Shown in pieces: positions 3,972-33,111 of a DNA stretch of 33,111 nucleotides. Source of the DNA: Rhodovulum imhoffii (GTDB lineage: Bacteria; Pseudomonadota; Alphaproteobacteria; Rhodobacterales; Rhodobacteraceae); assembly GCF_003046545.1 (NCBI RefSeq), contig NZ_QAAA01000024.1, forward strand, positions 1 to 33,111. Direction: 5' to 3'. The notes below the pieces were generated by a model. That model worked only from the letters and a program-made list of their open reading frames with translations, was not told the origin of the DNA and ran no database searches. A program made the translations under genes and the position numbers. Positions within the stretch are counted from its first letter, which is position 1, and each line of letters opens with the position of its first letter.

Positions 3972-4856
3972 TCACGCAGCCTGGTCACGATTGAGGGATT
4001 TGAAGAAAAGCGTGATCAGAACGACGATTATGATCAGTGACACAAAGCTGGCGGCCGCTCCGACGCCCATCCGCCAGAATGTAAAAGACTGCCGGTAGAT
4101 GAACATCGAAAGGACTTCGGTGCTGTCGCCCGGCCCGCCCTTGGTCAGCACGAAGATGATGTCGTAAATCTTGAAAGCATCGATGGCACGCAGGAACATC
4201 AGGCTAACCAATACGGGCTTGAGCTGTGGCAGCGTTACGCGTGTGAAGATGTCCCATCGGGAATTGCCGTCGATCATCGCGGCCTCATAGGGTTCGGGCG
4301 ACAGGCTCTGTAGTGCCGCCGCAGTGCCCATCATCACGAATGGTGTCCATTGCCAGATATCGGCAATGGCAATCGCCCAAAGCGCCCAATTGGTCGAGGC
4401 AATCCACGGGATGGAACCGACACCGGCAAAACTCAGGAAATAGTTTAGATAACCAATCTCCGGGAAGTACAGAAACAACCAGACCAGGCCGACAATGACC
4501 GGCGAAATCATCATTGGGATCATCAGCAATGTTCGTGCCAGAGGCATGCCGGGCAGCTTTTGAACCACCAGCAGCGCGATTCCGACACCCAAAACCAGTT
4601 GAACCGACAAAGTCATGGCCATGAGTTTGAAAGTAACAATGAGGGAGTGCAGAAACTCGCTTGAACTCAGGATCTCGCGATAGTTGGCCCCGCCGACAAA
4701 AACACGTGGGACAAAGATTTTGGCCAGATCGTAGGAGCGGAAACTGAGGTAACCCGCATAGATCATCGGATAGATCGTTGTCAGGAACAGAACCAATATT
4801 GCCGGCAACAAGAACATGCCAAAGATGCGTCTGTTTCGTTTTCGGATATAGGCCAT
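3972..4856 (-). CDS. ABC sugar-type permease, MalF/UgpA family
   Basis: A 294-residue inner-membrane permease starting MAYIRKRNRRIFGMFLLPAI, with a first membrane helix straight after a basic N-terminus and about six helices in all. The EAA loop reads YEAAMIDGNSRWDIFTRVTL (about 200), the site that contacts the ATPase. The frame also allows a TTG start at 4886 (ten more residues). I prefer the ATG at 4856 because a GGAG lies about 11 bases upstream and relatives begin close to this point. It sits between the binding-protein gene and the MalG-type permease in the same operon. Confidence 0.92.
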   Translation of the reverse strand: MAYIRKRNRRIFGMFLLPAILVLFLTTIYPMIYAGYLSFRSYDLAKIFVPRVFVGGANYREILSSSEFLHSLIVTFKLMAMTLSVQLVLGVGIALLVVQKLPGMPLARTLLMIPMMISPVIVGLVWLFLYFPEIGYLNYFLSFAGVGSIPWIASTNWALWAIAIADIWQWTPFVMMGTAAALQSLSPEPYEAAMIDGNSRWDIFTRVTLPQLKPVLVSLMFLRAIDAFKIYDIIFVLTKGGPGDSTEVLSMFIYRQSFTFWRMGVGAAASFVSLIIIVVLITLFFKSLNRDQAA

Positions 4857-22435: not shown

Positions 22436-23590
22436 TCATTCGTCATCGGCGGCGTCCTTCGTACTGGCAATGTCGCCAGACCCGCCGAACAATCCGACGA
22501 TGTGTCGCAGCAGACCGGCGCAGGCCAGCGACCAGACCGCAACGGCGGCGATGACTGAGACGGGTGGAATGCGAGCCAGCAGATCCAATTCGGCGGCGCG
22601 CGCCAGTTGTTCGGTCGACAGGGTGTACATTCCGAGCGGAAACACGATGCCCCAGACTTGTACGCCGTAACGCAGGGGCGTGCGATGCACCACATGAACC
22701 CAGATGCCGAGAACCACCAGAAGCGGGATCCACCAGGTTCCCACCGCCCAGAAGAAGAGCGAGAAGCCGAGCAGGAACGGGCGGAACGAGGCCAGGATGG
22801 CGACGTCGCCGGCTTGCTCCGCAAGCATGGCTCCAGACAAGGTCGTGATCGCCGCGGCGCCCATCCCGATCCAGTAAGGCCAGCCGATCTCTGCCGGCGT
22901 CAGCCGGACAAAAACGAGCCGGAAGAAGATCAGGGATATGATCGGAATGTAGAGCATGCAACCGACCAGAAAGAACACCAATGACGCGAGCAGCAGCAAC
23001 TCACGCTGTAGCGGAAACTCAGGCGCCAGCGTCCCACCGAGCGCCGCTACGGCCTGCGCCCCCACGACTGCGAGAAGCCACAGTCCGTTCAGTCCGCGGC
23101 GCAAGGTTGGCTTTGTTCTTGCCGTGATAAGGGCGGCCAGCACGGCGTAGTTCACAAAGAACCATAGTCCCGCCGCGACCACGTAGAACGCGCTCGCGAT
23201 TCCGGGTTGGCCGCCGAGGCGTGCGAGTTGTATGGCGAAGACGCAGACGCCGACGACGGTCGTGAAAAAGCCCATAGCCGCGCCATGATCACGCAGGTCT
23301 GCTGCGGCCCTGCTTCGATGGCGCACCAGGCGCAGTGCAGTCAACCCCAACAGCGCCACGAAGAAGCCCCCGTTGAGCGCGAACAGGGCAAGAGACAACC
23401 GGGTGCCGCCCATCACATGGACGGCCATCGAGACACTTCCCGTCGCCATCACCAGCGCGAAGGACGCCGGCGACAGGTCGGCAGCGGAGCAATCTATGAT
23501 CTGCACGAGCGTGGGGGCTGCGGGCCGCTCTGTCGCGGATGCCTTCGGCGGTTGCGATGGCGTGTCGGCGGGGGGGGGCACGCGGGACAT
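22436..23590 (-). CDS. TDT/SLAC1-family anion channel or transporter (TehA-like)
   Basis: A 384-residue inner-membrane protein with about ten hydrophobic helices. After a proline-rich N-terminus of about 30 residues comes LSPASFALVMATGSVSMAVH, the first-helix motif of the tellurite-resistance/C4-dicarboxylate transporter (TDT) family, whose members include TehA and the plant nitrate/chloride channel SLAC1. Later helices include FRPFLLGFSLFFWAVGTWWI and VFPLGMYTLSTEQLARA, also family-typical. It follows the NarI-cytochrome gene by 75 bp in the same direction, where nitrate reductase operons often carry a narK transporter. I infer that it may move nitrate or nitrite; annotation as a tellurite or dicarboxylate carrier would be only by homology. 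Confidence 0.85.
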   Translation of the reverse strand: MSRVPPPADTPSQPPKASATERPAAPTLVQIIDCSAADLSPASFALVMATGSVSMAVHVMGGTRLSLALFALNGGFFVALLGLTALRLVRHRSRAAADLRDHGAAMGFFTTVVGVCVFAIQLARLGGQPGIASAFYVVAAGLWFFVNYAVLAALITARTKPTLRRGLNGLWLLAVVGAQAVAALGGTLAPEFPLQRELLLLASLVFFLVGCMLYIPIISLIFFRLVFVRLTPAEIGWPYWIGMGAAAITTLSGAMLAEQAGDVAILASFRPFLLGFSLFFWAVGTWWIPLLVVLGIWVHVVHRTPLRYGVQVWGIVFPLGMYTLSTEQLARAAELDLLARIPPVSVIAAVAVWSLACAGLLRHIVGLFGGSGDIASTKDAADDE

Positions 23591-23616
23591 GCTTGCGGAG
23601 TCTCCGTGGCTCCACT

Positions 23617-23646
23617 TCCCGCCCCCCGAAAGATCTGGGGGCGGGA
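23617..23646 (-). other. Strong hairpin between narI-cyt and the channel gene
   Basis: TCCCGCCCCC (23617-23626) pairs perfectly with GGGGGCGGGA (23637-23646) around a 10-nt loop. It lies in the 75-bp gap before the TDT-family gene. No U-run follows on the minus-strand transcript, so it is more likely an mRNA processing or stability element, or partial attenuator, than a full terminator. Confidence 0.5.
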
Positions 23647-23665
23647 GGCTGAGACTACCGCCCGA

Positions 23666-25201
23666 CTACCGGGGGCCGGTTGCGGCGACGAGGGCGCCGG
23701 GTGGCAGAAGTTCGTTTTCCATATAGGCCACGATCGCCCAGATTTCATCGGCTGTAAGCGCGTCGCCGAAAGACGGCATCAGCCAGTGATCGGGGCCGTC
23801 GGGGATCCCGGCAGCGATGCGCCGGTAGAGCGCGGCCGGGCTGGACCCACTGCGCAGCGCATCGCGGCGGAAGTTCCGGGGCGACACCCGCAAGCCGTCC
23901 ACTTCAAGGATGCCGCTGGCGGCTTCGCCATCGCCACGGCCCCGTTCGCCATGGCACGAGGCGCAGCTCAGCTGGTACAGTTCAGTGCCTGCGGCAATCA
24001 GGTCCGGCGTCGTCTCCGGCCGCGACGGCACCTCGATCCGCGCACCGCTTTCGGGCCGGTCGAGCCACAATTCGTCCAGGACTTCTACCAGCGAGGAGAC
24101 CTGCGCCTCGCTGAGCGACGCGAAGCCGGGCATGCCGGAACCCGGCAGACCGGCAACGATCACCCGGCGCAGGTCCGCATCGGTCGCCACGCCGTTGTCA
24201 CTCGAGACATAGCGATAGCGCCCGCTGACGAGATCCCGCGGTGGACCCGAGAAGGTCGGCGAACCCGCCCCCGGTCCGTCGCCCTGTCCCTCCAGCCCAT
24301 GACAGCGCGCACATTGACTGACGAAGAGCGGATAGCCCGTCAGGACGTGCCCGCCGTTCGTCACGGCGACGTCGATTTCATCGGCACTGGTGCGGGCCTT
24401 CGCGGTCGGAACCAGCCCGTTGTCGCCCGGTCCGGGAAGCAGGAAACCGATCGTCAACAGCCCGACCACCGCCACAACCGCCGCATAGGTCAGATAGCTC
24501 TTGTCCGAAACGAGTCCGAACTCCCAGCGATTACGGAACTTCATCGCCGTGGTTCGCAGCACCTGGTAGGGCCGCACGAAGTAATTGATGGGCAGGGTCC
24601 AGGCGTGGATCAGCTTGGTGAAAGGAAAATACGCGGCGAACGTGAAGGCAAGAAACACGTGGATTTTCGTCAGAAGCGGCGCGGAGTCCATCAGCTCCGG
24701 CTGTGGCTGGAATCGCCAAAGGCTGGCAAACCATGGTGCCGCCGTGAAGGAAACCCCCCATATCCTGTGGACGAGGGCCTGGAAGATCGCCACTCCAAGG
24801 ATCGCGATCAGGAAGAGATGCACGATGTAGTCATCCGGCTGGCTCATCGCGCGCATCTCGGGGACGCGGATCCGCCGCACCAGCGCGATCACGGAGCCGG
24901 CTATCGCCGCGAGACCTCCGGCCGTGGCCATCAGGAAGAATGCGCTGACCCATCCACCGGCCCCCATCACGCCGCCGATCACACCGGCAATATGGCCGAA
25001 GAATGTGAGGAAGATGCCCCAGTGGAGGAGATGCGCGGCCAATCCCAGCGTATCGCGCCCGTGGAAGATCCCGCTGGCGCGGGTCGTCAGGCCGAACGGT
25101 CGGTAGATCATCCGCAGAAAGGGAATGACGAAGAACAGCGTCACACAGACGTAGGGAAAGATACCCCAAAGGAAGTAGTTGGAAGTTAACAAATCATTCA
25201 T
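23666..25201 (-). CDS. narI: Nitrate reductase gamma subunit NarI fused to a di-haem cytochrome c
   Basis: A 511-residue membrane protein, about twice normal NarI length. Residues 1-230 are NarI, the quinol-oxidising di-haem b subunit, with five helices. Haem ligands appear as His60/His70 and His181/His199, spaced 10 and 18 residues as in E. coli NarI (56/66 and 187/205). A sixth helix follows (SYLTYAAVVAVVGLLTIGFL, about 235-254). Then come two class I cytochrome c domains: CARCH (297-301) with likely Met357, and CASCH (413-417) with likely Met475. NarI's C-terminus normally lies in the cytoplasm, so the extra helix would place the c haems in the periplasm, where c-type haem is attached. The start overlaps the narJ stop (ATGA). 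The c haems could receive or deliver electrons by a route that bypasses quinol. Confidence 0.93.
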   Translation of the reverse strand: MNDLLTSNYFLWGIFPYVCVTLFFVIPFLRMIYRPFGLTTRASGIFHGRDTLGLAAHLLHWGIFLTFFGHIAGVIGGVMGAGGWVSAFFLMATAGGLAAIAGSVIALVRRIRVPEMRAMSQPDDYIVHLFLIAILGVAIFQALVHRIWGVSFTAAPWFASLWRFQPQPELMDSAPLLTKIHVFLAFTFAAYFPFTKLIHAWTLPINYFVRPYQVLRTTAMKFRNRWEFGLVSDKSYLTYAAVVAVVGLLTIGFLLPGPGDNGLVPTAKARTSADEIDVAVTNGGHVLTGYPLFVSQCARCHGLEGQGDGPGAGSPTFSGPPRDLVSGRYRYVSSDNGVATDADLRRVIVAGLPGSGMPGFASLSEAQVSSLVEVLDELWLDRPESGARIEVPSRPETTPDLIAAGTELYQLSCASCHGERGRGDGEAASGILEVDGLRVSPRNFRRDALRSGSSPAALYRRIAAGIPDGPDHWLMPSFGDALTADEIWAIVAYMENELLPPGALVAATGPR

Positions 25202-25899
25202 GGCTTCTTCCTCCCGTGGGTTTGCTGGGGTGTGGATTCGGGCATCTCGCGACGCTGGGGAATGGTTGCCTCGACTTCGGGAGGCAACCAGATCGGGTCA
25301 TCGGACATGCGCTCCAGGTCCTCCTCGACGACAAGCTGCAACGCGTCGAAGAGCATGTCATAGGCACACTCGTACTTCTGGAGCGCCTTGCGCAGGGGCG
25401 CGATGCCTGGTTGAATCAGTGTGTCCAGCAGCCGCCGGCGCAGGCCGATCCCGTCATGTTCGGAGCGTTCGATGCTGATCGCGAGGAATTCGAGCGCGAC
25501 CGGGACATAATCGGGGAGTTCGCTATCGCCCAATTCGAGACCGAAATGGGCGTACACGGCCGCCAGTTCAATCATGTAGGCATTGCGCCCCGACGCCCCG
25601 GCACCGCGGCATGAACTCGGCTCCTCGTACATGTAGGCGCCGAAATACAACGGACAGGGCGGCGACAGTTCCAGCGTCTGCGTGTACTCGTCCACATCGC
25701 GGGAGGCAGGAGAGGCGAGAAAGTCCTCGATTATCTCGCCTGGCGCGGAGCCGGCGATCTTGCCCCGGTTCAGGTCGATCCTGTCCTTGTCGCGGAACTC
25801 CGGGTTCACGAGCAGTTCTGCAATAAGACCGTAGGCGGCCCCAAGGTCCCAGCACGCCGGGGCTATCAAGGTCTCTACTCTGGTGGGTTCGGACATCAT
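25198..25899 (-). CDS. narJ: Nitrate reductase molybdenum cofactor assembly chaperone NarJ
   Basis: A 233-residue cytoplasmic chaperone of the TorD/NarJ family that binds apo-NarG and guides molybdenum-cofactor insertion and membrane docking. The helical N-terminal half carries the PLYFGAYMYEEP segment. The position between narH and narI is the normal one, and the TGATG and ATGA junctions with both neighbours indicate coupled translation. The C-terminal ~40 residues are charged and proline-rich with no obvious motif. The sequence is divergent, so the call rests partly on gene order. Confidence 0.9.
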   Translation of the reverse strand: MMSEPTRVETLIAPACWDLGAAYGLIAELLVNPEFRDKDRIDLNRGKIAGSAPGEIIEDFLASPASRDVDEYTQTLELSPPCPLYFGAYMYEEPSSCRGAGASGRNAYMIELAAVYAHFGLELGDSELPDYVPVALEFLAISIERSEHDGIGLRRRLLDTLIQPGIAPLRKALQKYECAYDMLFDALQLVVEEDLERMSDDPIWLPPEVEATIPQRREMPESTPQQTHGRKKP

Positions 25900-27449
25900 C
25901 AGCTTCCCACCTCCTCGCGATTTCCGTGGAACTCGGTCCTGCGGTTGGGCGCGCTGCCCGGGTCCATCAGATCGAAACCGGTGAAGCCGCGTTCGAGATA
26001 TGGTGCGTCCGCCGTATCTTCGGAGCGCGCAGTTGCGATCACGAAACGTTCGTGGAAATGCGCCAGAGCGAGCAGACGGTGCATGTGCCGTGCGTCCTGA
26101 ATGGTCAGTCCCACCTGCGCGAGCACCGACTCATCGATGCGGCCCTCCACACGTTCCAGACGCCGGAACTCCCGCACCGCAAGCTGGCGCAGCAGTGCCG
26201 TCTCGACCTGGTCCGTATTGCCCGCCGCCAGAAGCGTCGCGAGATACTCGATCGGAATGCGGAATTCCTTGAGTTGTGGCAGAACGGTACCGCCATCGAC
26301 CATGTCCATGGCGTTCCGCCCGTTGTCGACATGCGACGTTTTCACGGGACTCTCCGGCGGGATGTAGAAGAGGCTCGGAAGGGTCCGGAACTCCGGGTGC
26401 AACGGCAGTGCGATCTTCCATTTCTTGACCATGAAGAACACAGGCGAACGCCTGCATGCCTCCATCCAGTTGTCGGAGATCCCCTGGCGCCGGGCCTCCT
26501 GAATCACTTCCGGGTCGAAGGGATCGAGGATGATTTCACGTTGCAGATCGACAAGCTTGTCCTCTGGGGCATTCGCAACTTCGGCGACGCGATCAATATC
26601 GTAGAGGATCGGTCCGAGATAACGGATGCGCCCGACACAGGCCTGAAAGCACATGGGGGGCTGCCCGGTTTCGATGCGGGGGAAGCAAAGGATGCACTTC
26701 TCCGACTTGCCAGTCCGCCAGTTGTAATAGGTCTTCTTGTACGGACAGCCCGACACGCAGTAACGCCAGCCGCGGCAGCGATCCTGATCGATGAGGACGA
26801 CGCCGTCCTCTTCGCGCTTGTAGTTCGCCCCCGACGGGCAGGATCCGACGCAGGCCGGATTGAGACAATGATTGCAGATGCGCGGCAGGTACATCATGAA
26901 AGAGTCCTGGAATTTCAACAGGGCCTTCTTTGCCGCTTCGCTCATGTCCTTGAAGTTGTAATCGAGTGCGCCGGTGCCCTCGTAATGGGTGCCCGCCGCG
27001 TTATCCTCCCAGTTCACGCCGTAGGTTAGGTCGATGTCTTCCTCGGCGGTGATCTGCGATTTTGGCCGGGCAACCGGCTGGGAGTACTTGGTCGGCGTTT
27101 CCGAGTGGAGATCCTCGTAGGTGAAGGTAAATGGTCCCTTGCCGTAGTATTCATCCATCTGCGGCAGCACAGGATTGTAGAACAGGTTGATCATTTCCCA
27201 GAACTTCGACGCCTGGTTCAGCTTGGGCTGAGCCTGGCCGGGATTTTCCTTCCAGCCGCCCCGATACTTGTCCTGGTTCTCCCATTCCCGCGGATAGCCG
27301 ACCCCCGGCTTGGTCTCCACGTTGTTCCAGAACATGTATTCCGCGCCTTCGCGGTTGGTCCACACGTTCTTGCAGGCGATCGTGCATGTCTGGCAGCCGA
27401 GACATTTGTCCAGGTTAAACACCATTGAAAGTTGTTTCTTGATGCGCAT
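25899..27449 (-). CDS. narH: Respiratory nitrate reductase beta subunit
   Basis: A 516-residue iron-sulfur electron-transfer subunit between NarI and NarG. It holds four cysteine groups, numbered from ATG 27449: Cys16/19/22/26 (CLGCQTCTIAC), Cys192/195/200/204 (CNHCLNPACVGSC), Cys225/231/235 with Trp228 in place of a cysteine (CRGWRYCVSGC), and Cys252/255/267/271. The tryptophan marks the [3Fe-4S] cluster, so the subunit carries three [4Fe-4S] and one [3Fe-4S], as in E. coli NarH. A TTG at 27452 also opens the frame directly after the narG stop; the ATG three bases later is likelier, with GGGAAGGG upstream. It shares one base with narJ. Confidence 0.97.
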   Translation of the reverse strand: MRIKKQLSMVFNLDKCLGCQTCTIACKNVWTNREGAEYMFWNNVETKPGVGYPREWENQDKYRGGWKENPGQAQPKLNQASKFWEMINLFYNPVLPQMDEYYGKGPFTFTYEDLHSETPTKYSQPVARPKSQITAEEDIDLTYGVNWEDNAAGTHYEGTGALDYNFKDMSEAAKKALLKFQDSFMMYLPRICNHCLNPACVGSCPSGANYKREEDGVVLIDQDRCRGWRYCVSGCPYKKTYYNWRTGKSEKCILCFPRIETGQPPMCFQACVGRIRYLGPILYDIDRVAEVANAPEDKLVDLQREIILDPFDPEVIQEARRQGISDNWMEACRRSPVFFMVKKWKIALPLHPEFRTLPSLFYIPPESPVKTSHVDNGRNAMDMVDGGTVLPQLKEFRIPIEYLATLLAAGNTDQVETALLRQLAVREFRRLERVEGRIDESVLAQVGLTIQDARHMHRLLALAHFHERFVIATARSEDTADAPYLERGFTGFDLMDPGSAPNRRTEFHGNREEVGS

Positions 27450-27452
27450 CAA

Positions 27453-30400
27453 TCAGCCCTTCCCGAGTTTGATTTCATGTTCCTGGTAGATGACCTTGCG
27501 TCCGTCCGCCTCGGGCGGCTTCTTCCGGATGAGAACGGCGCAGTCGCGTTCCGATGGGCTCGTGCCTTGGTAGTTCAACCAATACGTCCAGTTGGCATAG
27601 CCGCCGACCATCGTCGCCGGGTTCATCATGATGCGGGTCGTGGCGTTGTTGTTGCCGCCACGAAGATCCGTTGCCCCGCGCTCCCGCGCCAGTGAGGAGA
27701 ACGGCACGTTCACATGGCGTTCGGTCTGATGGTAGACGATCGACATGTCGCGCGGGACTGTGTGGCTGACCACCGCACGCGCGACCTGGATTCCGTTTTC
27801 ATTGAAAATTTCGACCCAGTCGTTGTCCTCTACGTCAATCTCCTTGGCGTCGTCGTCGTTGATCCAGACAGTCGGACCGCCGCGGAACATGTTCATCATC
27901 TGCCAGCTGTCGTGGAACATGCTGTGAATGCCCCATTTCTGGTGCGGCGTGATGAACCTGAACAGTTTTGCCCCTTTCATCTTGAGATCGTCGGCCGAAA
28001 CGTCGCCGATGCAGACCATGTCCACGGGCGGTTTATAGGTCGGAAGGTCCTCGCCAAGATCGCGGAACATCTTGTGGTCGTAGTAGACCTCCTGCCGCCC
28101 GGTCAGGGTGTGGAAGGGCTTGAGCGCCTCGATGTTGAGCGTCCACGGGCTGTAGGTGCGCCCCTTGGTCTCGATCGCCGACCAGTGCGGCGAGGTCAGG
28201 CTGCGCCGCGGCTGCGAGATCAGGTCGGGGAAGTGATAGGCAATCTCGCGATCATGCTCGACCAGATGGGCGAGCGGAACCCCGGTGCGTTTCTCGAGTT
28301 TTTTGAAGATCTGGTAGGACAGTTCGCCATCGCTTTCCGGCGACATGCGCAGGATCGTCTCGCAGACCTGCCGGGCGTTGTGGAGCGAAGGCTTGCCGCT
28401 CTTCTCACCGACGAGATAGCTGTCCTTCAGTTGCTCGTAGACTTCCGCCAGGTCGCTCTTGATGCCCTTTGCGCCATAGCCGTTCGGTTTGGTCACCTCC
28501 GGCCCCAAGGTCGTGTATTTCTCGTGGATCTGGGTGTAGTCACGCTCGATGACCTTCACATTCGGGAAAGTCTTGCCTGGGACCGGCTCGACCTCGCCCT
28601 TCCACCAGTCCTTGAGCTCGCCCATGGGCTGCGCCAGTTCGTCGGGCGTGTCGGTGTTGAGCGCGGTCATCACCAGATCTTCGACCGGCTCGGGCAGGTG
28701 CTCCTGCGCCAGGTCGCTGATCTTCTCGGCGATGATGCGGAATGCCTCCCAGTCATGCTTGCACTCCCACGCCGGGTCATGCGCCGGGGTAAAGGGGTGC
28801 AGGAAGGAATGCAGATCCGTGCAGGTGACGTCGTCCTTCTCGTACCAGTGCGCCGTCGGCAGGACGATGTCGGAGTAGTTCGCAGAAGAGTCCATGCGCA
28901 GGTTGACGTTGTAGATCAGATCCAGCTTGCCGAGCGGCGCCTCCGTGCTCCAGTCGATCTCGTGAACCATGTCCTTGGCGCGCTCGTCCCCGCCCAGGAC
29001 GTTGTGGTGGGTGCCGAGCATGTGCTTGAGGTTGATCTCGTGGCCGCGCATGCTGGTACCGATCAGGTTGCCGCGGTAGATCCACAGAACCTTCGGGTGG
29101 TTCTTCTCGGCGTCCACGTTGGGCAACGCGAACTTGAGCTCGCGATCCTTGAACTTTTTCGCGACCCATTCGCCCACGGCGGTGTCGGAATCCACCCCCT
29201 CGGCACGAGCTTCCTTCATCACGTCGAGCGGGTTCTTCTCGTCGAACTGCGGAAAGAACGGCAGCCAGCCGTTGCGCACAGCCACCGCGTTCATGTCGGC
29301 GGAATGGTTGGCGCGGGACGGCATGTCCGTGGCGCGCGGTGCCCAGAGCGGGTCGAGGCTCATCCCGTCATAGCGCCACTGGTCGGTATGGAAATAGAAG
29401 AATGAGGTCGAGTTCTGTTGCCGGCCCACATTTCCCCAATCCGCCGCGCCGCCGATCGTGCCGATCGCGGCGAAGTTCCGGATTTTCTCCGTTCCGACAT
29501 AATGGGCAAAGCCGCCACCGTTGCGACCCTGGCAACCGGTGAGGATGCCCATGACCGCCTCGGCACGGTAGGTGAGCGATCCGCCATGATACCAGTGCAG
29601 GATGCCCGAGCCGGTGATAAACAGACACTTGCCCTGCGTCTTCTCGGCGGTGTCCGCCCATTCCCGGGCTACGCGGATGGCAAGGTTCCGGTCAACGCCG
29701 GTCTCCTGTTCCTGCCAGGCGGGCGTATAGGGACGCTCGGCGTCGTCATAGTCGGCCGGATAGCCATCGCCGGACAGGCCTCGGCGCACACCGTACTGCG
29801 CCAGGAGAAGATCATAGGCAGTTGTAACGCGGACCTTCGAGCCATCTGCGAGCGTCATCACCTTGCTCGGCACACCGCGCATCGTGGGCGTCGCCTTGTT
29901 GCCGCGCAACTGCGTGGTGCCGAGCTCGACATTGTAGGTGTGGGTGAAGTCGGCGAACTCGACCTGCACCTCCTCGTAATCGCCGTCCATAAGGGTGAGA
30001 CGCGGCTCATAGGCCTCGCCGGTGCGGGCGTCCTCGTTCTTCAAGTTCCAACGGCCGGTGGTCTTCTCCTCCCAGCGGAAGCCGACGGAACCGCCCGGCA
30101 GCCGCAGATCGCCGTTCTTGTCGAACAGCGGGAACTTCCACTCGCCCAACTCCTCGTCGGAGTAGTCGCCCAGATCGCTGGCGCGAAGGAAGCGGCCGCT
30201 GCCGTAGTGGTCGCCCTCTTCCTCGAGGATCACGAGGAACGGCAAGTTGGTGTACTGTCCGACATAGTCGAGGAAGTACTCCGAGCGCCGGTCGACGTGG
30301 AATTCCTGCAAGATGACGTGGATACAGGCCATCAGGAAGGCGGTATCGGTCCCTGGACGAACCGGAACCCAGAGATCGGCGAACTTCGTGACGTCGGAAT

Positions 30401-31226
30401 AGTCGGGCGACAGGTTGACGAGCTTGCCGCCGTTGTACTTGTGCTCCGAGGCGAAATGCGCGTCCGCCGTACGCGTCATCGGCAGGTTCGAACCCATGAC
30501 GATCCAGTAGGCGCTCTGATACCAATCGGCCGATTCATGCACGTCGGTCTGATCCCCCCAGATCATCGGCATGACGTGCGGCAGGTCGTGGTACCACTCG
30601 TAGAAGCTGAGCATCGTTCCGCCCAACAGGTTCGAAAGACGATGACCGGACAGAAAGCTGACCATGCTCATCGCCGGAATCGGCGAAAACGAGGCGAGGT
30701 GATCGGGACCGTATTGCTTGATCGTGTAGATCTTGGCGGCGGCAATGATCTCGGCGGCCTCGTCCCAACTCGTGCGGCGCCAGCCGGCCTTTCCGCGCGC
30801 ATTGCGGTATTTCGCGGATTTCTCGGGATTCTCGACAATCGCCGCCCAGGCTGCGACGGGGTCCTTGCCGGCCTTGCGTTCCTGCCGGTAGTAGTTCAGC
30901 AGAACGCCGCGCACATACGGGAATTTCGGGCGCACAGGGCTGTAGGGATACCAGGAAGAGGAAATACCCCGCTGGCAACCGCGCGGTTCGTAGCTCGGAG
31001 TGTGGTCGTTGATCTGCGGCCAGTCGGTCTTTTGCAGTTCCCAGGTGATCATGCCGTTCTTGACGAAAACCTCCCAGGAACAGGAGCCCGAACAGTTGAC
31101 GCTGTGGCTCGTCCGGACCGACTTGTCGTACTGCCAGCGCCTGCGATAGAAATCTTCCCACTTCCTCGGCTCGTTGAGTTCCCTGAACCACCGGGATGTC
31201 TTCGTGCCTTTGAGTACTTTGTTCAT
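27453..31226 (-). CDS. narG: Respiratory nitrate reductase alpha subunit
   Basis: A 1257-residue catalytic subunit reducing nitrate to nitrite at a Mo-bis-MGD site. The N-terminal FS0 cluster ligands are His41, Cys45, Cys49 and Cys84 (HSVNCSGSCSW and PRGCQRG), the His-plus-three-Cys set of NarG. The probable molybdenum-binding aspartate is Asp228 in WGDQTDVHESADW. Other conserved blocks include LPTAHWYEKDDVTCTD, LTPHQKWGIHS-like FITPHQKWGIHSMF, and a C-terminal GGYANWTYWLNYQGT. The N-terminal YRRRWQYDK is the vestigial twin-arginine remnant seen in cytoplasm-facing NarG. The ATG overlaps the upstream gene's stop (ATGA), with GGAGGA about 10 bases upstream. Confidence 0.98.
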   Translation of the reverse strand: MNKVLKGTKTSRWFRELNEPRKWEDFYRRRWQYDKSVRTSHSVNCSGSCSWEVFVKNGMITWELQKTDWPQINDHTPSYEPRGCQRGISSSWYPYSPVRPKFPYVRGVLLNYYRQERKAGKDPVAAWAAIVENPEKSAKYRNARGKAGWRRTSWDEAAEIIAAAKIYTIKQYGPDHLASFSPIPAMSMVSFLSGHRLSNLLGGTMLSFYEWYHDLPHVMPMIWGDQTDVHESADWYQSAYWIVMGSNLPMTRTADAHFASEHKYNGGKLVNLSPDYSDVTKFADLWVPVRPGTDTAFLMACIHVILQEFHVDRRSEYFLDYVGQYTNLPFLVILEEEGDHYGSGRFLRASDLGDYSDEELGEWKFPLFDKNGDLRLPGGSVGFRWEEKTTGRWNLKNEDARTGEAYEPRLTLMDGDYEEVQVEFADFTHTYNVELGTTQLRGNKATPTMRGVPSKVMTLADGSKVRVTTAYDLLLAQYGVRRGLSGDGYPADYDDAERPYTPAWQEQETGVDRNLAIRVAREWADTAEKTQGKCLFITGSGILHWYHGGSLTYRAEAVMGILTGCQGRNGGGFAHYVGTEKIRNFAAIGTIGGAADWGNVGRQQNSTSFFYFHTDQWRYDGMSLDPLWAPRATDMPSRANHSADMNAVAVRNGWLPFFPQFDEKNPLDVMKEARAEGVDSDTAVGEWVAKKFKDRELKFALPNVDAEKNHPKVLWIYRGNLIGTSMRGHEINLKHMLGTHHNVLGGDERAKDMVHEIDWSTEAPLGKLDLIYNVNLRMDSSANYSDIVLPTAHWYEKDDVTCTDLHSFLHPFTPAHDPAWECKHDWEAFRIIAEKISDLAQEHLPEPVEDLVMTALNTDTPDELAQPMGELKDWWKGEVEPVPGKTFPNVKVIERDYTQIHEKYTTLGPEVTKPNGYGAKGIKSDLAEVYEQLKDSYLVGEKSGKPSLHNARQVCETILRMSPESDGELSYQIFKKLEKRTGVPLAHLVEHDREIAYHFPDLISQPRRSLTSPHWSAIETKGRTYSPWTLNIEALKPFHTLTGRQEVYYDHKMFRDLGEDLPTYKPPVDMVCIGDVSADDLKMKGAKLFRFITPHQKWGIHSMFHDSWQMMNMFRGGPTVWINDDDAKEIDVEDNDWVEIFNENGIQVARAVVSHTVPRDMSIVYHQTERHVNVPFSSLARERGATDLRGGNNNATTRIMMNPATMVGGYANWTYWLNYQGTSPSERDCAVLIRKKPPEADGRKVIYQEHEIKLGKG

Positions 31227-32062
31227 TTGCCGGGTTCCTCCGCAGTTGGCTGTGTGTCCGCCTCGGTTTCCAGAGCAACCGAGAACGCTTTGATGAAGGG
31301 ACGAAAGTCGCGAACGGTCCCGTAGACCGCGATCACGGCGTTGCGCGTCTCGTCGAAGACCAGATTGACCGCCTCTGACCGGCCGACCGGGTGCGGCGAT
31401 GCACCTTCATGGTCGATCCAGTCCTCCCGCATGGCCTGCATCGAGACGTAGAACAGGCCGCCGAGGGGATGGACCTGCCACCAGATGCGGTAATCCCAGT
31501 CTCCAAGCCTGATCTCGTGCTGCCGGGTTGTTTGCGAGGCGTCATGGGGGTCGATGTCCCACTGGAGCACCGAAATCCCGGATGAATAGTCCAGCGTCTC
31601 ACGCGGGCCGGCCAGCGGGTCGGGCCCTCCCGGACGGTAGCCGGCCCGTTCGGCCAGATCCTGGCGGCCAAGCACGGTCGCAAGAAGCTCGTCCTCGGGA
31701 AGCTCATCCATGGAGACCATGCCATCTTCCAGATACTCCGCCTCAAGGGGTGTCATCCGCCGCGCGCGGGGCGTTTCGCAACCGCATCCCTCTTGCTGGA
31801 TCTGGCCATGATCCGGACCGGCGTTGATCCCGTTCATGCGCACGTCGGCGAAACCGGCCTCGCTCAGCACGCCGCGGATGCGGGTTTCGACATCTTCGAG
31901 CGCCCGCCCCTGTCGGCCACTCGGGAGTATCTCGAGTTCCACACGTGGCCAGTTCGTAACGATTCGACCGATCAGCCCTTCTTCGACGATCCCCTGAGAC
32001 GCGCCCGGGAAACGGACTTCGCGCAAAATGTCCCGGACCCGGCTCTCGTTCATCAATTCCAT
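31223..32062 (-). CDS. Nar-operon protein with a MIP18/DUF59-like N-terminus and unknown C-terminal domain
   Basis: A 279-residue protein, first gene of the nar operon. Residues 8-78 (RVRDILREVRFPGASQGIVE, then EGLIGRIVTNWPRVELEILP) follow the pattern of MIP18/DUF59 Fe-S assembly proteins (SufT, PaaD, Mrp N-terminus). A short acidic linker carries the pair Cys93-x-Cys95 in EGCGCETPRARR. The C-terminal half includes LGDWDYRIWWQVHPLGGLFY and a final VRDFRPFIKAF helix; I do not recognise it as a known domain. It overlaps narG by 4 nt, so the two are translated together. A role in Fe-S or cofactor loading of NarGH is inferred. The ATG at 32062 is chosen because GGAGGG sits 8 bases upstream (32071-32076). 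Confidence 0.75.
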   Translation of the reverse strand: MELMNESRVRDILREVRFPGASQGIVEEGLIGRIVTNWPRVELEILPSGRQGRALEDVETRIRGVLSEAGFADVRMNGINAGPDHGQIQQEGCGCETPRARRMTPLEAEYLEDGMVSMDELPEDELLATVLGRQDLAERAGYRPGGPDPLAGPRETLDYSSGISVLQWDIDPHDASQTTRQHEIRLGDWDYRIWWQVHPLGGLFYVSMQAMREDWIDHEGASPHPVGRSEAVNLVFDETRNAVIAVYGTVRDFRPFIKAFSVALETEADTQPTAEEPGK

Positions 32063-32226
32063 CGGTGCAGCCCTCCGTCGGCGCGTGGCTTTGCGGACAA
32101 GGGGTCTCGGGGTGCGTACTTTTTCATTTCCGTCCTCCCGCTTCGTTCGCCGGTTCCTGAGCGCATTCCGGACCCGTGCACTTCCAGGCGTTGGGATCGC
32201 GTCGTGCTACCGCTATCTTCAACCTC

Positions 32227-32242
32227 GCAAATGCCGTGCCAA
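32227..32242 (-). promoter_or_regulatory. Sigma-54 promoter facing the nar operon
   Basis: On the minus strand the sequence is TTGGCACGGCATTTGC, matching the RpoN consensus TGGCACG-N4-TTGC with the invariant GG (-24) and GC (-12) exactly 12 bp apart. Transcription would begin near 32215, leaving a leader of about 150 nt before the DUF59-like gene at 32062. A second copy of the same design points the other way at 32995. No FNR-type TTGAT-N4-ATCAA site was found between 32063 and 32480. Such a promoter requires an AAA+ enhancer-binding activator. Confidence 0.75.
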
Positions 32243-32351
32243 TTCCGCTTTCGAGATCGCAGCACCGCGCATCTTTCTTGCGGAAATGTCCGCAGGAGGC
32301 TGAGAACGCCCGAACCGGGACGCGACAAATCCGTCGTTGCGGCCGCGTCCC

Positions 32352-32377
32352 GGCGGTCGTTGTCAGGGGTGACCGCC
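32352..32377. promoter_or_regulatory. Dyad upstream of the nar sigma-54 promoter (possible activator site)
   Basis: GGCGGTC (32352-32358) and GACCGCC (32371-32377) form a 7-bp inverted repeat with a 12-bp spacer. A second overlapping dyad, GTCA-GGGG-TGAC, lies at 32362-32373. The centre is about 125 bp upstream of the -24 element, the usual distance for an enhancer-binding-protein site. It is not a match to a consensus I can name. Confidence 0.35.
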
Positions 32378-32379
32378 TG

Positions 32380-32990
32380 CAAGGCGCACAAGGGCAGATT
32401 CGATGCGACGCGCGGGCCATCGGCAGAAGCCAATTGGCCGCCCTTTCACGGCATGACCGGACAATCTGACCCACATGCCCCAACTGTCCCATGGGCTGCG
32501 ATCAGATCGTGATGGCGTGTCACGACCGGTCTTGTCCGGAGATTCCGACCCGGCGCCTGACGCCATCATCCTCCGGGCACGCCACGCCTCCATGCCGGAA
32601 ACCGGGAAATTCGCGATCGGGCTGGTCGCGGACACTATCGACCTGTATGGCCGTCAAGCGCATCAAGGGATTGCGCCCCGCTCCGGGCGCTGTACCGCGC
32701 CGGCTCGGGCCGCTCGGATGAATCGGCGATTTCAGAACGCTCCGGGTCCGGCGTGACTTTGGCAACGGAGCGTCGGGCGCCGATGCCGCGACCTCGCGCG
32801 ACGACCTCGGTCCGCGCGGGCAAGCCGCGATGCAAGGCGCGCCCCCCAACGGGCGCGCCGCCAGGAGCGCGCACATGCAAACGCGCAACGGTCCAGTGCC
32901 CCGGAGCGTTGGCCGCACCGCAGCCCGCGGTCCCTGATCGCGACCAGCCGTCTCCGGCGGCTGCTTTTGGCCCGCCCGGACCGGTCAGCG
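32380..32990. other. Intergenic region between divergent sigma-54 promoters, no recognised gene
   Basis: Short open frames on both strands do not resemble known proteins and lack good ribosome-binding sites. Structural features include an 8-bp inverted repeat (CCGGACAA at 32457-32464, TTGTCCGG at 32532-32539) and the palindrome GACCGGTC at both 32524-32531 and 32979-32986. A 9-bp stem hairpin, GGCGCGCCC with GGGCGCGCC, spans 32836-32859. The stretch is best read as a regulatory region, though a decayed gene cannot be excluded. Confidence 0.45.
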
Positions 32991-32994
32991 GTAG

Positions 32995-33010
32995 TTGGCA
33001 CGACTATTGC
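32995..33010 (+). promoter_or_regulatory. Sigma-54 promoter facing the right window edge
   Basis: TTGGCACGACTATTGC matches TGGCACG-N4-TTGC, with GG and GC 12 bp apart. Transcription should begin near 33022. A Shine-Dalgarno AGAGGAG lies at 33094-33100, and the gene's start codon is at or just past the window end. The palindrome GACCGGTC lies 8 bp upstream of the promoter. Confidence 0.75.
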
Positions 33011-33026
33011 GGTCTTCATGCTGGGA

Positions 33027-33087
33027 AAAGTGGCTGCCAAGGGGGGGCGCCGTCTTGCCGAAGCGCGCACTGACGTCCCCCCACTTT
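33027..33087 (+). other. Structured 5' leader with competing pairings
   Basis: Just after the sigma-54 promoter, AAAGTGG (33027-33033) can pair with CCACTTT (33081-33087), while GGGGGGG (33041-33047) can pair with CCCCCC (33077-33082). The two pairings share bases 33081-33082. This could form a leader RNA structure close to the ribosome-binding site at 33094. Function is unproven. Confidence 0.4.
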
Positions 33088-33111
33088 CACATCAGAGGAG
33101 TCGAAACATCA

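Follow-up and report, generated by a model that had tools for sequence, protein, structure and literature searches.

Bacterial enhancer-binding proteins form oligomers that bind upstream of a promoter, loop to the RpoN polymerase and open the promoter by ATP hydrolysis. The purple sulfur bacterium Thiocapsa roseopersicina DSM 217, one of the 12 Chromatiales genomes compared in this report, is said to oxidise nitrite, from work by Schott in 2010. For Thiocapsa sp. KS1, growth by phototrophic nitrite oxidation is reported in the part of PMC4041230 consulted. The portion of PMC8387239 used here assigns the enzyme of KS1 to the nitrite oxidoreductases of Nitrobacter type and treats nitrate reductases (Nar) and nitrite oxidoreductases (Nxr) of the KS1 type as related.

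The window, the whole stretch of DNA analysed here, has 33,111 nucleotides and is the entire contig C24 of Rhodovulum imhoffii (the host; genome of 2.9 Mb, 99.98% complete). Its minus strand carries an operon with the KS1-type gene order, including accA, a NarI-cytochrome c fusion and a SLAC1-type channel. The first gene, accA (31223–32062, 279 residues), has no match in Pfam or NCBIfam and is a paralog of acc2, a gene on contig C35. It is followed by a narG/nxrA-like alpha subunit (27453–31226, minus strand; TIGR01580 over the cut-off), which groups with 12 Chromatiales sequences, and a narH/nxrB-like beta subunit (25899–27452, minus strand; TIGR01660 over the cut-off). The narJ-like chaperone (25198–25899, minus strand) scores below the TIGR00684 cut-off, and its position is conserved. 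By its family matches, the next gene (23666–25201, minus strand) encodes a narI-like subunit with a fused cytochrome c domain. The SLAC1-type anion channel (22436–23590, minus strand) follows narI in the Chromatiales loci too. The N-terminus of acc2 (C35:3014–3868) resembles PF01883 (FeS_assembly_P) weakly. Both accA and acc2 travel with KS1-type nxr and may encode assembly factors.

A search of genome contigs found 71 related loci, 27 of them with best-segment identities of 69–86% and the rest with 43–49%. The nearest are 12 loci from Chromatiaceae/Chromatiales and an unplaced gammaproteobacterial bin nesting among them; Thiocapsa sp. KS1 (85% identity) belongs to this set. NarG of the window is 83–86% identical to the Chromatiales proteins, and each of the 12 Chromatiales genomes has a single NarG match at E ≤ 1e-100. 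The NarG tree has 45 rows (the window, 12 Chromatiales, 12 other KS1-type loci and 20 ordinary NarG, without Nitrobacter, Nitrococcus and Nitrolancea sequences). In it the window and the 12 Chromatiales form a group of 13 rows with an SH-aLRT support of 100. Relatives within the host genus that have a full-length NarG have the ordinary type (46%). The accA gene occurs in two of 394 genomes of the host's family, namely the host itself and one 30% partial match, and no plasmid copy of the operon was found above 60% identity. In the host, two reaction-centre (PF00124) matches lie next to each other. Because of the KS1 clade, the ordinary NarG in the genus, the rarity of accA in the family and the reaction-centre genes, the operon most likely encodes the nitrite oxidoreductase of a phototroph and was gained by transfer; the oxidative direction of the enzyme is suggested by this kinship.

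Upstream of the operon, two divergent sigma-54 promoters with the full -24/-12 layout had been predicted, and both sites proved exact in a consensus search of the window. P1 (TTGGCACGGCATTTGC, 32227–32242, minus strand) faces the accA-narGHJI operon and P2 (TTGGCACGACTATTGC, 32995–33010, plus strand) points toward a DUF2478 gene across the contig end. Each has 0 mismatches to TTGGCACGNNNNTTGC, with GG at -24, GC at -12 and correct spacing; this pattern is what we take to be the sigma-54 consensus, and the scoring matrix used here is likewise presumed. At up to 2 mismatches to TTGGCACGNNNNTTGC the window holds 5 matches versus 4.39 expected from shuffled sequence, and therefore the exact matches alone stand out. 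A window site at 4526, which deviates from the full consensus at one position, falls within an ABC permease gene and was treated as chance. Genome-wide, the 15-mer TGGCACGNNNNTTGC has nine matches versus two for the reversed control pattern. The leading T is also present in four of the nine, which gives the full 16-mer: P1, P2, one site on C1 and C35:1857–1872 (P3, before a formate/nitrite transporter gene). C24 and C35 thus hold three of the four full 16-mer sites on 1.4% of the genome. Matches to TGGCACGNNNNTTGC on C6, C8, C9 and C12 are within long open frames and were set aside. The site on C1 (L001:1500–1515) precedes a small XRE-type gene (121-residue frame), an arrangement reminiscent of xrpA, which RpoN3 targets in Cereibacter sphaeroides according to the part of PMC11999139 used.

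The original prediction had seen no FNR-like dyad in this region. This agrees with a scan of 32063–33111, in which none was found at up to 2 mismatches, and FNR-type control of the operon was rejected on that basis. A perfect 10 bp inverted repeat (CCGGGACGCG / CGCGTCCCGG, 19 bp apart) is located at 32315–32353, 73–111 bp upstream of P1.

A comparison of upstream regions of homologous operons had been proposed as a check, and it separates two sets of loci. For each locus the best plus-strand sigma-54 score was taken from the 500 bp that precede the first gene of the operon. All 12 Chromatiales loci, which are related and hence not independent counts, have a P1-type site with scores of 13.7–19.3, located 118–134 bp before the start of the match to that gene. 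None was found in 12 other, more distant KS1-type loci (best score 9.5); these are the loci with an upstream region among 13, L074 being cut off. L109 and L113 comprise partial narG only and lie outside the upstream comparison. Judged by eye, the DNA flanking the P1-type site is far less alike than the element itself. On these sequence comparisons, P1 is very probably a real sigma-54 promoter.

The same upstream regions share a dyad. GACA-N3-TGTC, at up to 1 mismatch and within 300 bp of the sigma-54 site, is present in all 12 Chromatiales loci (7 of them exact). This is the highest count among 2304 four-base dyads with spacers of 0–8; the overlapping dyad ACAA-N-TTGT ties at 12 and has zero exact copies. 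The background at up to 1 mismatch is 0.40 per kb in 14 sequences scanned. In the window, the dyad scan places a candidate activator site with 1 mismatch at 32460–32470 (no strand assigned), upstream of P1. No copy at up to 1 mismatch was found within 500 bp of P2, and the sole such copy at P3 falls within the activator gene of C35, at a distance of 373 bp upstream. An exact copy is present on C35 between the transporter gene and acc2. Further exact copies are present elsewhere in these loci: some of them lie close to weaker sigma-54 sites, and one within narG is conserved. The dyad is therefore not specific by itself.

The contig could be extended to the right. The last 95 bp of the window (33017–33111, plus strand), the leader of DUF2478, are identical to the reverse complement of C35:8397–8491 and of C15:1–95. 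The join of C24 and C35 is thus a 95 bp overlap that is common also to C15. Judging by orientation, C35 continues C24 rightward, and C15 enters this 95 bp stretch as a second left arm. An IS66 transposase fragment lies on C15, and its likeness to other IS66 copies mostly ends near the junction. A second context of the C35 end and the DUF2478 leader therefore exists, either on an additional copy or in a fraction of the population. At its opposite end C35 overlaps C14. The frames listed there were named by our own reading, made without a family search, and seem to serve ordinary metabolic and transport functions.

Rightward from P2, C35 carries DUF2478 (PF10649), an FtrB-like Crp-family gene (convergent) and RpoN. 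These are followed on the other strand by a SUF-associated PF01883 protein, acc2, the formate/nitrite transporter (PF01226) preceded by the third exact site, P3, and a sigma-54 activator. The extension suggested by the original prediction accordingly reveals a divergent gene with a sigma-54 activator nearby, and RpoN in addition.

The RpoN of C35 has all three domains (PF00309, PF04963 and PF04552), exceeds the TIGR02395 cut-off and has its RpoN box at residue 448. Its identity to the second full-length RpoN of the host, on C21, is 31%; a third, short RpoN match is located on C9. Among the matches listed from 21 other genomes, identity is at most 38% over most of the length (41% over 214 residues), and a vertical origin as a Rhodobacterales gene was rejected on these values. 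The closest RpoN proteins found are encoded on Rhodobacterales plasmids (48% and 45%), each adjoining a sigma-54 activator gene. A tblastn search with the C35 RpoN showed, among the matches listed, none near the activator or the operon in the fetched Chromatiales stretches. The private sigma factor is for this reason regarded as a feature of the host.

The activator of C35 has an AAA+ sigma-54 domain (PF00158) and a Fis-type DNA-binding helix (PF02954), and its loop reads GAFSGA instead of GAFTGA. It has matches of 45–57% in all 12 Chromatiales genomes. In six other KS1-type genomes searched, the E-values were 1e-60 to 1e-70 or there was no match. Activator and narG share one contig in ten of the 12 Chromatiales and are on separate contigs in two draft bins; acc2 adjoins the activator gene in all 12. 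The host activator joins the Chromatiales activators with an SH-aLRT of 93, below the program's mark of 95. A second, more diverged activator paralog is encoded in the Chromatiales bin IP29b_bin.61 (L167:8841–10148), with no kinase gene adjoining.

A canonical receiver is kept in 11 of the 12 Chromatiales activators, the frame in L170 having no receiver. In the host receiver, CNE stands at the acidic pair, the aspartate that is normally phosphorylated is replaced by histidine, and alanine takes the place of the lysine. The host protein has no PF00072 match and lacks a phosphorylatable aspartate. A histidine kinase gene directly follows the activator in all 11 testable Chromatiales loci (L170 is cut). 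In three Thiocapsa loci (L160:15188–16663, L158 and L159) this kinase continues into a MoaB-type molybdopterin protein as a fusion, which may connect the control of nxr with the supply of the cofactor. The MoaB part of the Thiocapsa kinase matches a separate host gene (53%). An ortholog of the kinase was not found in the host genome, where kinase-domain matches reach only 30–32% over longer stretches and up to 47% in short pieces (C8). From these low matches we read the kinase as lost in the host, a diverged kinase being the alternative.

Membership of the regulon has shifted, since none of four Chromatiales loci tested has a sigma-54 site before the transporter and the acc2 promoter scores at least 16 (16.2) in three of 12, all Thiocapsa. 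The candidate of a conserved transporter promoter was rejected on the four loci.

The observed sites, their conservation, the gene neighbourhood and the loss of receiver residues are consistent with the following model. The activator of C35, encoded ~9 kb from P1, most likely binds GACA-N3-TGTC dyads 60–280 bp upstream. Its oligomers would loop from the dyads to the RpoN polymerase at P1 and open the promoter via ATP hydrolysis. The RpoN encoded between P1 and the activator gene is probably the activator's partner. In Chromatiales, activator and kinase form a two-component system in which the kinase would switch the activator on. Because the kinase was not found in the host and the receiver pocket is lost, the host activator is probably independent of phosphorylation; its activity would then be set by its own level or by a ligand. 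Through P3, the uptake of nitrite would be coupled to the enzyme. In this model P3 (transporter) belongs to the same regulon in the host, and P2 (DUF2478) probably does too. We are fairly confident that P1 is a real sigma-54 promoter driving a horizontally acquired KS1-type nxr operon in a rhodobacteral-like phototroph, through the activator and RpoN from C35.

The interpretation that both sites are chance matches and that the operon uses an ordinary promoter is highly improbable. A match to the consensus is by itself no evidence of function, but the position of P1 is kept in all 12 relatives and missing in all 12 outgroup loci. If P1 is sigma-54 dependent, it could still be served by a different activator and a different RpoN encoded in the host, such as the RpoN on C21 or the NtrC-type protein on C6, with the C35 pair serving the transporter alone. 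The second full-length RpoN, several further proteins with sigma-54 activator domains and the position of P3 adjoining the C35 activator gene would fit such an arrangement. It is nevertheless judged quite improbable, as in the 12 Chromatiales genomes the C35 activator type is the only one that co-occurs with a P1-type site, and its gene shares the operon's contig in ten of them. Somewhat less remote, and still unlikely, is the reading in which the sigma-54-controlled operon encodes a genuine respiratory nitrate reductase. NarG and NarH do pass nitrate reductase cut-offs, and direction cannot be fixed from sequence alone; the Nar and Nxr enzymes of this type are related (PMC8387239, as far as consulted). 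Membership of the clade of KS1, a strain for which the part of PMC4041230 used reports phototrophic nitrite oxidation, argues against reduction, as do the fusion of NarI to cytochrome c, the formate/nitrite transporter in the cluster and the phototrophic host. The original prediction had tied nitrate respiration to sigma-54 and an AAA+ activator. Sigma-54 control and the link to an activator find good comparative support in the conserved site, the dyad and the RpoN and activator of C35; nitrate respiration is probably the wrong process for an operon in the nitrite oxidoreductase clade of Thiocapsa KS1.

For P2 the case is weaker, and there is an appreciable chance, though less than even, that it is a chance match or a functionless relic. 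No dyad is nearby, neither a counterpart in the Chromatiales loci nor any other P2 ortholog was found, and C15 gives the same leader a second context behind an IS66 fragment. The expected start codon of DUF2478 (window 33108–33110), after a purine-rich ribosome site, reads ATC; an ATG at 33018 would precede the deduced start of the P2 transcript. On the other hand, the genome has four sites with the full consensus and P2 is among them, lying in the right orientation ~100 bp before this ribosome site and the DUF2478 frame, which runs on into C35. DUF2478 genes on plasmids can adjoin molybdopterin or molybdate-transport genes (H17, H18, H19 and H24). Of the predicted link to a divergent gene beyond 33111, the gene itself is present in position as DUF2478, but comparative support for P2 is missing.

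A wider reading, which we offer tentatively and at slightly less than even chances, is that of a portable, self-contained sigma-54 circuit: a nitrite-oxidation island, together with its promoter, activator and targets, would have passed between the purple sulfur bacteria and a phototroph of the rhodobacteral type, and would have been rewired in the recipient. In this rewiring the sensor kinase would have been lost, the activator would have become independent of phosphorylation, and the recipient would have a sigma factor of its own for the circuit as well as new sigma-54 promoters, one at the transporter and one at DUF2478. If this holds, the recipient would oxidise nitrite phototrophically without belonging to any group that the consulted parts of the papers name, and the host is an example of a regulon travelling with its own sigma factor and losing its sensor. 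Promoter, dyad, activator and kinase are conserved, which makes the circuit testable in cultured Thiocapsa strains. Genes of KS1 type that carry a nar annotation may point to nitrite oxidisers currently counted among the nitrate reducers. The nar-annotated operon of KS1 type at 22436–32062, together with the reaction-centre genes, marks the host as a candidate rhodobacteral phototrophic nitrite oxidiser.

The nxr loci of Thiocapsa sp. KS1 and other Chromatiaceae share with the host the order accA-narG-H-J-I/cytochrome c-SLAC1, the P1-type site, the dyad, the activator and acc2. The host differs in that no kinase ortholog was found in its genome, in its degenerate receiver, in the dedicated RpoN within the cluster, in the perfect consensus of P1 and in the sigma-54 sites at the transporter and DUF2478. 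Nitrospira nxr loci also have sigma-54-type regulators encoded adjoining nxr (PMC6606698, in part), whereas their NXR is of another, periplasmic type (PMC8387239, in part), and the portion of PMC6606698 used describes no promoter or upstream site. The RpoN3-AprX-xrpA module of Cereibacter sphaeroides likewise combines a specialised RpoN paralog with its own activator in Rhodobacterales; what it targets is a ctrA/chpT regulator rather than an island for energy metabolism (PMC11999139, in part). The plasmids pP73A of Celeribacter indicus (48%) and pPABY4 of Salipiger abyssi (45%) carry the nearest RpoN found, adjoining a sigma-54 activator gene, but in catabolic or TRAP-transporter surroundings and with no nxr genes in the stretches examined. 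No description of sigma-54 control of KS1-type nxr was found among the papers listed in searches of open-licence literature. Specialised RpoN-activator pairs and the Nitrospira regulators were already known; new with respect to the literature searched is the combination of a conserved promoter, a dyad and an RpoN-activator pair for a KS1-type enzyme.
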